Shown here: in pieces, positions 7,946-11,326 of the stretch
How the letters are laid out: every line of letters starts with the position of its first letter
Position numbering within the stretch: position 1 is the stretch's first letter
NCBI GenBank assembly: GCA_012839805.1
Contig: DUMU01000032.1
Coordinates: 1-63,067 of the forward strand
Reading direction: 5' to 3'
Source: Bacillota bacterium
GTDB taxonomy: Bacteria; Bacillota; Limnochordia; Limnochordales; DUMU01
DNA length: 63,067 bases
Made by a program: the position numbers and the translations under genes
The notes under the pieces: generated by a model
Seen by the model: the letters and a program-made list of their open reading frames with translations, nothing else
Databases searched by the model: none
Told to the model about the DNA's origin: nothing

Positions 7946-9259
7946 ATGGAGATGGGTGAAAGACGAATGCCAACAGGTGAAGAAGAACTACGCCTGCCTC
8001 CGTCCCCCGGCGAGCTCCCGCGGCCACGACCCATTCTGCTGAGGGAAGATGCGCTGGTCATCCTGGACCAGACGGCTTTGCCACTGGTGGAACGGTATTT
8101 GGAACTGCGTACCCCGCAGGAGGTTCACCGGGCGATCCGGGAGCTCAAGGTGCGGGGTGCGCCCGCCATCGGCATCGCGGCGGCATACGGGCTCTACCTG
8201 GGGCTAAGGGGATGGATCGGGGAAACGGCACCGGGCGGGCAGGAGGTACCCTTCCCCGGCCAAGGGCCGGCATCGGACCGGCAGCCCGGCCGCGCGGACG
8301 AAGTGCTGGCCAGGGCCGAGGCGATTGCCGCGTTCCTGCGCACGGCCCGCCCCACCGCCGTGAACCCGGCCTGGGCTCTCGACCAGGTGCTCGGGGCCAT
8401 GCGCCAAGCGGCAACGGAAGCCGCGGCGGCCGGTCCGGCCGGCGGTGACGCGGTGGACCGTGACCCGGCCGTTCGCGCCCTCGTCGCGGCCGCCCGTCGC
8501 CGGGCCGAGGAACTCCTGGCCGAGGACGACGCCGTCTGCCTTGCCATCGGCCGTTATGGCCTCGAACTATTACGGCAGCGGCTGCAACCGCGGCTACATC
8601 ATCAGCCCGGCGCTACCGGCGAAGGGCGACCACGCCCGCTCGGGGTTCTCACGCACTGCAACGCCGGGGGGCTCGCCACGGCCGGATGGGGAACTGCCCT
8701 GGCCGTCATTTACCTGGCCCATGCCGCCGGCCTTCCCGTCCACGTGTACGCTGACGAGACCCGCCCGGTGCTCCAGGGCGCCCGCCTGACCGCCTGGGAA
8801 CTGCAACAGGCCGGCGTCCCGGTCACGCTCATCTGTGACAACATGGCCGCCGCCCTCATGGCCCAGAGCAAAGTGGACGTGGTGATCGTCGGCGCGGACC
8901 GGGTCGCGGCCAACGGCGATGTGGCGAACAAGATCGGCACTTACGGCGTCGCCGTCCTCGCGCGCCACCACGACATCCCCTTTTACGTCGCCGCCCCCAC
9001 CTCTTCTATCGATCTTTCGCTTCCGAACGGTGCCGCGATCCCGATCGAAGAACGTTCACCCGAAGAAGTGACCACGATCCAGGGGCATCCCATCGCCCCG
9101 CCCGGAATCGACGTCTGGAATCCCGCCTTCGACGTCACCCCGGCCGAACTGGTCTCCGCTTTCATTACCGAGCACGGCGTCGTCTATCCGCCGTTCCCCG
9201 GCGGCCTGCAGAAGGTGGTGGCAGCTGCAGGTTCGGGTCCGGCTCGCTTGCGCCCGTAG
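7946..9259 (+). CDS. mtnA: S-methyl-5-thioribose-1-phosphate isomerase
   Basis: Isomerises methylthioribose-1-phosphate to methylthioribulose-1-phosphate in the methionine salvage pathway. Family motifs are clear: VRGAPAIGIAAAYGLYLG near residue 70, HCNAGGLATAGWGTAL with the catalytic cysteine near 238, and GADRVAANGDVANKIGTYG with the catalytic aspartate near 318. At 437 residues it is about 90 longer than usual. The excess is in two Gly/Pro/Ala-rich inserts, roughly residues 90-112 and 155-172, in surface-loop positions. ATG7946 or ATG7952 could start it; the ribosome-binding site is weak. No other salvage gene adjoins it, although metH occurs 15 kb away. Confidence 0.92.
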   Translation: MEMGERRMPTGEEELRLPPSPGELPRPRPILLREDALVILDQTALPLVERYLELRTPQEVHRAIRELKVRGAPAIGIAAAYGLYLGLRGWIGETAPGGQEVPFPGQGPASDRQPGRADEVLARAEAIAAFLRTARPTAVNPAWALDQVLGAMRQAATEAAAAGPAGGDAVDRDPAVRALVAAARRRAEELLAEDDAVCLAIGRYGLELLRQRLQPRLHHQPGATGEGRPRPLGVLTHCNAGGLATAGWGTALAVIYLAHAAGLPVHVYADETRPVLQGARLTAWELQQAGVPVTLICDNMAAALMAQSKVDVVIVGADRVAANGDVANKIGTYGVAVLARHHDIPFYVAAPTSSIDLSLPNGAAIPIEERSPEEVTTIQGHPIAPPGIDVWNPAFDVTPAELVSAFITEHGVVYPPFPGGLQKVVAAAGSGPARLRP

Positions 9260-9376
9260 CACATGTAGTGTATGCTACCCTACAGCAACTGCAGCAGCTC
9301 GGGCCGCGGGAGAAACGGAAGGACAGGTTCCGCCGCGGCGCAGCGTTGGCGTCGAAACACCGTGGCGAGGAAAGGG

Positions 9377-11326
9377 ATGGCCGGGAAGAACTCTACCCCT
9401 AATCCTCCTGGTAGCTTTGGGGAATGGCTGCGACAGGCGCGTCGTTCACGGGGGCTCAGCTTGCGGGCGCTGGGGGCAGCGCTGCAGGTACATTACGTGT
9501 ACCTCAGCCAACTGGAACGAGGGGTGGAGCGCCCTTCGGAGCAGATGGTTCACCGGCTGGCCGCCTTTTTCGGTCACCCCGATCCTCACCAGTTGCTGCT
9601 CCTGGCCGGCAAGCTGCCCGGCCCGGTGCGGGAAGCACTCCAGCGCCTGCTGCAGGAGAACTCGGGCGGAGCACAGGCCGTGCTTCGCCGGCTCATGGGG
9701 GGAGAACCTGCGGCCATGTCACGAGAGACGGTGCTGGCAGCCTGGCGGGAAGAGGCCCGCCGCCAGTGGATGTTCCACATTCACGACACGGTAAGGGCTT
9801 TGCAGGAACTCGAAAGCTACAAAGATGGCGGCTCGGACCGTCCCGGCTCGCCCGATCGGGGCCCGGCCGAGCAGGGCCCGGCCCAGCGGGTCTCGGCAGC
9901 ACCCGGCCTGGCCGAACGGGGCTCGGCCGCGCCGGCTCTAGCCGAGATGGAAGCGATGGTCCGGGAAGGGCAACGCTACTTCGATGCCGATGAACCCGGG
10001 AAGCTTTGGCGGCAGATCGCCCGGATCCGGCATGCCCTGCGCCAGCACTTCGGCTATGCCACCTTCGCCCCCCTGCTAGGCCAGGGAGTGGCCGAAGACG
10101 ATGCCTCCCTCATTGAACGGATGGAACGGCTGGACGAGGTGCAAAACCCCGAGCGGCCCAGTTCGTGGGAGGGTTTGCGCCGCGTGGTCCCGGCCTGGCC
10201 CGCGGACGAAGAGCAGGCCGTCGGCCGGCCGGCGGCGGCGCCGCCCGGCCTGGACCTTGCCGAATACCGGGACCGGACTCTTGCCGGCTGGCTTGGCAAG
10301 CTGATCGGGGGCGCGCTGGGCACGCCGGTGGAAGGCTGGCCTGCCGGCAAGATCGCCGCCGAATACGCTGAGATCCGCGGCTACCTGCGGCCCCCCGACA
10401 CGTTCAACGACGATACCACTTACGAACTGGCCTTCCTGGCCGCCATGGAACGGACCGGAGGCAACCCGACCAGCATCGACCTGGGACTCGAGTGGGTGGA
10501 GCGGATACCCGTGGCCTGTACCGCCGAAGAGATGGCACTCCGGAACCTCCAGCAGGGAATCCTGCCGCCTCTCTCCGCCTGGCTGAACAACCCCTACGCC
10601 GAATGGATCGGCGCCCAAATGCGGGGAGAGGTCATGGGCTTCGTCGCCCCGAACCAGCCCGAGCGGGCCGCAGCACTGGCCTGGCGGGACGCCCGCATCT
10701 CGCACCTGCGGGAGGGCATGTACGGAGAGGTGTTCAACGCCGTAATGGTCAGCCTGGCTTACGCCAGAAAGCCCCTGCGTGAACTGATTGAAGAAGCGCT
10801 CCGTTTCGTACCCCCCCGGAGTCTCTTCGCCCGGGCGGTCCGGGAGACGATGGCAGCCTGCGAAGAGGCCCGGGCACAAGCCCACGCGCAGCCACCGGCC
10901 CAGGCGGACCAGGCGTGGAGGCAAGCGCTGGCAGCCGTCGAGGATCGATGGGTGAAGCGGTACCACTGGGTTCACACTCTCGCCAGCATCCCGGCGGTGA
11001 TCATCGGGCTGTGGTTTGGCGTCGGCCCCGGGTATTACGATAGTACCGCTCCGAGACCCAGCCCCGGCCCTGACGCCCGGGAGGCTTTCACCCGGACCAT
11101 CACCATTACCACCATGTGCGGCGGCGACGCTGACTGCACCGCCGGCCAGGCGGGAGCCATCGCGGGGGTGATGCTGGGCTCGCAGGCCATCGGGCCGGAA
11201 TGGCGCGACCCCCTGGGCGACGTTATGGAAAGCTGGGTATGGGGAATGGAACGGCTCCGCCTCGAAGAACTGGTCGAACGCACCTGCCGTTGGGGCTGGC
11301 CTGCCCGGGCTGCCGACAAGACTTGA
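9377..11326 (+). CDS. XRE-type DNA-binding domain fused to an ADP-ribosylglycohydrolase
   Basis: A 649-residue two-domain protein. Residues 13-70 form an XRE helix-turn-helix (FGEWLRQARRSRGLSLRALG, then YLSQLERGVERPS). Residues ~295-640 match the ADP-ribosylglycohydrolase (DraG/ARH) family: AGWLGKLIGGALGTPVEG, the metal-binding FNDDTTYELAF (DDT 345-347) and a second metal motif GGDADC (582-587) followed by TAGQAGAIAG. The paired Asp motifs suggest the two-metal site is intact, so it may remove ADP-ribose from protein or nucleic acid. A Pro/Ala/Ser-rich stretch at ~150-192 and a helical linker join the domains. ATG9377 is chosen because GAGGAAAG precedes it; the open frame begins at 9272. It lies 117 bp after mtnA in the same direction; operon membership is uncertain. 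Confidence 0.85.
   Translation: MAGKNSTPNPPGSFGEWLRQARRSRGLSLRALGAALQVHYVYLSQLERGVERPSEQMVHRLAAFFGHPDPHQLLLLAGKLPGPVREALQRLLQENSGGAQAVLRRLMGGEPAAMSRETVLAAWREEARRQWMFHIHDTVRALQELESYKDGGSDRPGSPDRGPAEQGPAQRVSAAPGLAERGSAAPALAEMEAMVREGQRYFDADEPGKLWRQIARIRHALRQHFGYATFAPLLGQGVAEDDASLIERMERLDEVQNPERPSSWEGLRRVVPAWPADEEQAVGRPAAAPPGLDLAEYRDRTLAGWLGKLIGGALGTPVEGWPAGKIAAEYAEIRGYLRPPDTFNDDTTYELAFLAAMERTGGNPTSIDLGLEWVERIPVACTAEEMALRNLQQGILPPLSAWLNNPYAEWIGAQMRGEVMGFVAPNQPERAAALAWRDARISHLREGMYGEVFNAVMVSLAYARKPLRELIEEALRFVPPRSLFARAVRETMAACEEARAQAHAQPPAQADQAWRQALAAVEDRWVKRYHWVHTLASIPAVIIGLWFGVGPGYYDSTAPRPSPGPDAREAFTRTITITTMCGGDADCTAGQAGAIAGVMLGSQAIGPEWRDPLGDVMESWVWGMERLRLEELVERTCRWGWPARAADKT

Follow-up and report, generated by a model that had tools for sequence, protein, structure and literature searches.

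Between the mtnA and fumarase genes of the window, the whole 63,067-nt stretch of DNA analysed here (contig C19 of genome G000), lies xre-arg (P0001), a gene whose product, XRE-ARG, carries an XRE-type HTH head and an ADP-ribosylglycohydrolase domain (Pfam ADP_ribosyl_GH, PF03747; hereafter ARG). The locus comprises the following features:

9264 to 9284: probable operator (predicted), the 21-bp palindrome TGTAGTGTATGCTACCCTACA, separated from the mtnA stop codon by 4 nt and from the xre-arg ATG by 92 nt
9377 to 11326, forward strand: xre-arg gene, encoding 649 amino acids, with homologues of the same architecture
9416 to 9583, forward strand: XRE/HTH_31 domain, residues 14-69 (Pfam; folds of P22 c2, HigA and ImmR, Z about 10)
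9908 to 10231, forward strand: helical extension, residues 178-285, common to stand-alone ARGs of the same subfamily (alignment and AlphaFold model)
10250 to 11308, forward strand: ADP-ribosylglycohydrolase-fold domain, residues 292-644 (Pfam; ARH3 Z 32.5, MJ1187 31.5, DraG 29.8)
10406 to 10417, forward strand: metal motif N344-D345-D346-T347, aligned with TDDT of DraG
11120 to 11137, forward strand: metal motif G582-G583-D584-A585-D586-C587, aligned with GGDADT of DraG

The ATG start of xre-arg is directly preceded by GAGGAAAGGG (9367-9376); a longer alternative reading frame from 9272 would overlap the putative operator, and a scan of positions 9150-9420 for sigma-70 promoters found none. 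The union of the two domains in one chain, proposed in the sequence-only reading, was borne out by Pfam: residues 14-69 match HTH_31 (E = 2.6e-10) and HTH_3 (4.2e-9), both above the gathering score, and residues 304-605 match ADP_ribosyl_GH (E = 5.1e-46; 158 bits against a cut-off of 26.2). An AlphaFold2 model built on an alignment of 24 relatives (mean pLDDT 85, pTM 0.81) shows two parts predicted with confidence, with helices and, around residues 150-175, a low-confidence linker between them. In this model, the N-terminal part superposes on the XRE-type DNA-binding proteins P22 c2, ImmR and HigA, and the C-terminal part on ARH3, MJ1187 and DraG, with ADP-ribose complexes among the matches. 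Two insertions in the window protein are absent from that of the congener (G001), one Gly/Pro/Ala-rich at about 150-178 and the other at about 551-569, in the loop before GGDADC.

The metal motifs are kept, as had also been proposed: D345, D346, D584 and D586 do not vary among the 24 ARGs that were aligned, and E319 shows conservation of 90% or more. XRE-ARG shares with DraG and ARH1/ARH3 (PF03747) the fold (Z 27-32), the four metal-binding Asp and the active-site Glu; it differs from them, however, in its NDD/DDD and DxDC motifs, IGAQxR loop, lack of D97, XRE head and helical extension. N344 and C587 stand where DraG has its Thr ligands, a Cys at the latter position being normal for the subfamily, and profile alignment places A380 at the position of R. 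rubrum DraG D97 and WIGAQMR at that of the DraG loop GNGAAMR. Against TIGR02662, the NCBIfam equivalog for DraG, XRE-ARG scores 25 bits, below the cut-off of 337. Judged from these profiles and alignments, XRE-ARG belongs to both the PF03747 fold family and the XRE family but lies outside DraG proper, its subfamily being distinct from that of classical DraG.

A search for this architecture found it in four genomes of two classes. The protein of the congener, the one further genome of the genus that the analysis covered (L026, JADBKP010000014.1), is 58% identical over residues 8-639, and those of G363 and G072, both from another class, are 38-39% identical over the full length. This recurrence of the architecture in the congener and in G363 and G072 identifies a genuine fusion and no assembly artefact. 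Surveys of the class (72 genomes), the phylum (398) and the sister class (17) detected no further XRE-ARG, although the phylum survey scored three candidates per genome and a few may therefore have been missed. The architecture is rare, and no description of it was found in the open-access full-text literature; the possibility that it is common and already described was rejected. In the congener, the frame of the gene before the HTH (L026:5960-6010) contains no ATG, GTG or TTG, and the ATT after AGGAGAGGTAG is its likeliest start, unless there is a sequencing error.

An ARG of the same broad subfamily bears a GntR-family HTH in three Limnochordales genomes (L016/L032, L014/L033 and L052/L151), the domains being verified by Pfam for L032 and L033 and assigned by homology for L052/L151. 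Like most XRE-ARG genes, these genes stand with sugar-binding protein (SBP) genes, each heading an SBP-permease operon:

L032, 5048 to 6694: GntR-ARG gene
L033, 5665 to 7326: GntR-ARG gene
L151, 10348 to 11925: GntR-ARG gene

In a tree of ARG domains, the GntR fusions form one clade (support 100/99) apart from the XRE fusions, and an HTH of one or another family was therefore joined to an ARG at least twice.

At the loci inspected, HTH-ARG genes are mostly the first genes of sugar ABC-importer operons, and XRE-ARG sits with sugar importers, as opposed to the DraT or nitrogenase company of DraG. GntR-ARG is followed by an SBP and two permeases in G005 and G007 (L151 and L033) and by at least an SBP and a permease in G004 (L032); XRE-ARG is followed by an SBP, a permease and a stand-alone ARG in G363 (L079), and by a VOC protein, an SBP and two permeases in G072 (L080). 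Compared with their counterparts behind GntR-ARG, the SBP and permease encoded after XRE-ARG in G363 show 45-57% identity, and the same importer type therefore carries an ARG sensor on two DNA-binding heads, GntR in three genomes and XRE in another. Stand-alone ARGs with the same metal motifs share operons with HTH-ARG genes. The G001 gene is divergent from one SBP gene and convergent with another (tandem repeats resembling a CRISPR array lie beside this locus, L081:12949-17000). In the window's genome, where xre-arg shares no operon with a transporter, the targets are predicted from the operator alone.

The operator half-site, TGTAGTGTA, was first noticed by reading upstream regions. A scan of five whole genomes for the 21-bp pattern TGTAGTGT-N5-ACMCTACA, allowing at most one mismatch, returned only four places:

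G000, C19, 9264 to 9284: own promoter of xre-arg
G000, C1, 2642 to 2662: 25 nt before an SBP gene
G000, C22, 13568 to 13588: perfect site, 63 nt before the gene of an ARG paralogue
G001, C6, 14566 to 14586: between the divergent xre-arg and SBP genes

The C1 SBP is 87% identical to the orthologous SBP divergent from xre-arg in G001. The C22 ARG paralogue has an N-terminal hydrophobic, signal-peptide-like stretch, and its gene is followed by genes for an SBP and then for a UroD-family protein and a GlpK-like kinase. Markov-simulated sequence totalling 238 Mb contained no such site, which puts the chance expectation below 0.012 per genome. The motif had first been recognised at promoters of these loci; the only sites found independently of that are those at C22 and C1 of G000 and at C4 of G072. 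G363 and G072 each show one clear half-site and one weak one, and a related site in G072, TGTAGTGTAAGG-TT-CCTTACGCTATA, stands before a gene set (L122:1137-4440) that encodes a Gfo/Idh/MocA oxidoreductase, a xylose-isomerase-like barrel and an epimerase. The confinement of the pattern to these promoters suggests that the 21-bp palindrome is probably the operator of XRE-ARG and that the gene is autoregulated; the own promoter had been proposed as a binding site, and the predicted site at 9264-9284 agrees with this.

The same reading had also named mtnA as a place to look for binding, but mtnA is an unlikely target. There is no operator site upstream of mtnA, the one at 9264-9284 lying downstream, and in the congener a beta-propeller gene, mtnA, fumarase alpha and fumarase beta are consecutive, with no xre-arg between them. 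Because mtnA and fumarase adjoin there without xre-arg, the link is incidental, and a functional tie to methionine salvage was rejected. This comparison places xre-arg at mtnA in the window's species only, with its own putative operator carried along. Transposase-like genes (L121:2311-2583 and L081:3479-4234; 91% identical over 76 residues) lie near the operator-bearing SBP gene in both species and are a possible means of relocation. The window's MtnA (7946-9259) has 437 amino acids against a 377-aa open frame in the congener, and its profile match is split in two, as if it contained internal insertions.

G000, G001 and G002 also encode proteins in which the XRE module (residues 10-130) is joined to an F5/8C and GHL10 glycosidase-like region (Pfam was run on the G000 protein), the modules of the two kinds of protein being 44-50% identical. 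A 25-bp palindrome, TGTAGTGTAG-N5-CTACACTACA, lies between each of the three genes and a divergent SBP gene:

L029, 3567 to 5906: XRE-F5/8C-GHL10 gene
L030, 3509 to 5803: XRE-F5/8C-GHL10 gene
L031, 2920 to 5589: XRE-F5/8C-GHL10 gene

Across 41 genomes, the 25-bp pattern occurs only at these three promoters and, with a spacer one base longer, at the xre-arg site of G001. The 25/26-bp form was rejected as the XRE-ARG site, as it misfits C19, whereas the 21-bp form fits all four G000 and G001 sites. XRE-F5/8C-GHL10 thus resembles XRE-ARG in its XRE module, its half-site and its divergence from SBP genes, but differs in having a glycosidase-like GHL10 region as putative sensor and an operator of 25 bp instead of 21 bp. 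In L029 and L030 (G000 and G001), the neighbouring gene encodes a stand-alone F5/8C-GHL10 paralogue. The most economical reading is that these proteins represent a second case of an XRE domain joined to a copy of the enzyme of the locus, and that the enzyme copies act as sensors.

We consider it likely, though not certain, that XRE-ARG is an autoregulated one-component regulator of the uptake of a sugar or sugar conjugate, probably a repressor, with a diverged copy of an ARG enzyme as its sensor. A dimer of XRE domains would bind the 21-bp palindrome at three targets, namely its own gene, the importer SBP gene and the gene of the secreted ARG paralogue that precedes another SBP gene. The ARG domain would bind, and may cleave, a glycosyl compound entering through the controlled importer, presumably in a metal-dependent manner, and transmission of this signal to the DNA-binding head would alter its affinity for DNA, coupling uptake to substrate. 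Because the sites that XRE-ARG appears to bind precede its own gene, a sugar-uptake gene and the gene of a related exported enzyme, an imported sugar compound is the likeliest ligand of the ARG part, rather than ADP-ribose on DNA or protein. Of the earlier idea of a regulator that senses ADP-ribosylated ligands, one half is therefore retained: the candidate operator, the predicted regulon and the independent HTH captures all speak for a ligand sensed by the ARG domain, and the ADP-ribosylated nature of that ligand finds no support in the annotated loci, whose context is one of sugar importers.

The C1 SBP (3e-40) and the SBP behind the C22 ARG (6e-30) both have as best match 6rjy, an arabino-oligosaccharide-binding protein, and the C1 SBP gene has GH127, alpha-L-arabinofuranosidase and AraD-type epimerase genes as neighbours. 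These matches are suggestive only of arabinose as the ligand, and this reading is weak because a window SBP without operator likewise matches 6rjy best and because the G363 and G072 SBPs match other sugar binders. A broader proposal, rather improbable in our view, is that "ADP-ribosylglycohydrolases" with DDD/DxDC motifs are hydrolases of imported conjugates, possibly pentofuranosyl (e.g., L-arabinofuranosyl), instead of ADP-ribose enzymes, and that XRE-ARG and GntR-ARG would both bind and cleave their own inducer.

Compatible with a regulator of sugar uptake is the possibility, on balance doubtful, that XRE-ARG is a trigger enzyme, in which the ARG domain would be an active hydrolase destroying the inducer that it senses. 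PutA, a catabolic enzyme and regulator, is an example of a trigger enzyme. The retention of the four metal Asp and E319 would favor such activity, as opposed to the broken Nudix motif of NrtR and AraR (PMC4666351), and so would the stand-alone ARGs with the same motifs in the same operons. The retained Asp would also fit a protein whose role is mainly enzymatic. The separate ARG enzymes are, however, themselves present for catalysis, the metal ligands of XRE-ARG may contribute to ligand binding alone, and Ala occupies the position of DraG D97. It is scarcely probable, on the other hand, that the ARG domain plays a passive part, for dimerisation or as a scaffold, with the signal coming from elsewhere, and that the fusion is a recent accident; the rarity of XRE-ARG and the presence of xre-arg at mtnA in one species only would fit this, but the fusion is conserved between classes with all metal ligands, an HTH was captured a second time independently, and the operons are linked to importers.

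A sensor or eraser of ADP-ribosylated protein, ADP-ribosylated DNA or ADP-ribose, acting at specific DNA sites, appears very unlikely. Its appeal lies in the fold and metal centre of ARH3 and DraG, including the ADP-ribose complexes, and in the existence of ARG-linked regulators of ADP-ribose responses, but these have separate Nudix or WYL sensors (PMC9503650). The inspected loci show a sugar-import context instead, and their annotated genes include no ADP-ribosyltransferase, NAD, Nudix, macro or NADAR gene; Nudix or WYL regulator, phosphatase and chaperone genes were likewise absent from the annotated neighbours. A search of four genomes with PF07357 (DraT) gave no match, the control search being silent too. 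Removal of ADP-ribose from DNA or a bound partner at specific sites, another suggestion of the initial reading, finds no contextual support, and the altered pocket loop and the Ala for D97 also speak against it. PADLOC returned generic HTHs only, a further point against an ADP-ribose role; an anti-phage or toxin-antitoxin role was rejected on the same matches.

The closest parallels to the proposed uptake regulator are found among other enzyme-derived or ARG-linked systems. NrtR and BtAraR have a sensor domain derived from a Nudix hydrolase, for ADP-ribose or L-arabinose, the latter being sensed by BtAraR (PMC4666351). Like XRE-ARG, they combine an HTH with an enzyme-derived ligand domain and reuse an ADP-ribose-type enzyme fold, but both folds are unrelated to those of XRE-ARG, and the Nudix catalytic motif is broken whereas the metal ligands of XRE-ARG are intact. 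In Escherichia coli, the GntR repressor GgaR (YegW) senses ADP-glucose and controls yegTUV, in which an ARG gene (yegU) accompanies genes for a putative sugar kinase and a nucleoside-type transporter (PMC10819704). A GntR repressor is thus tied to an ARG, as in the HTH-ARG fusions, but regulator and ARG are separate proteins there and the sensor is not the ARG domain, whereas XRE-ARG would unite both in one protein.

With a defined candidate operator and a small predicted regulon, the ligand of XRE-ARG is directly testable, and as the putative sensor is a paralogue of stand-alone enzymes, this ligand would point to their substrate. Its identity could thereby reveal the substrate of a large, perhaps misleadingly named subfamily (PF03747, DDD/DxDC) encoded beside sugar transporters. 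The occurrence of two unrelated heads on one sensor, and of one head on two enzyme-derived sensors, would illustrate the building of one-component regulators out of pathway enzymes.
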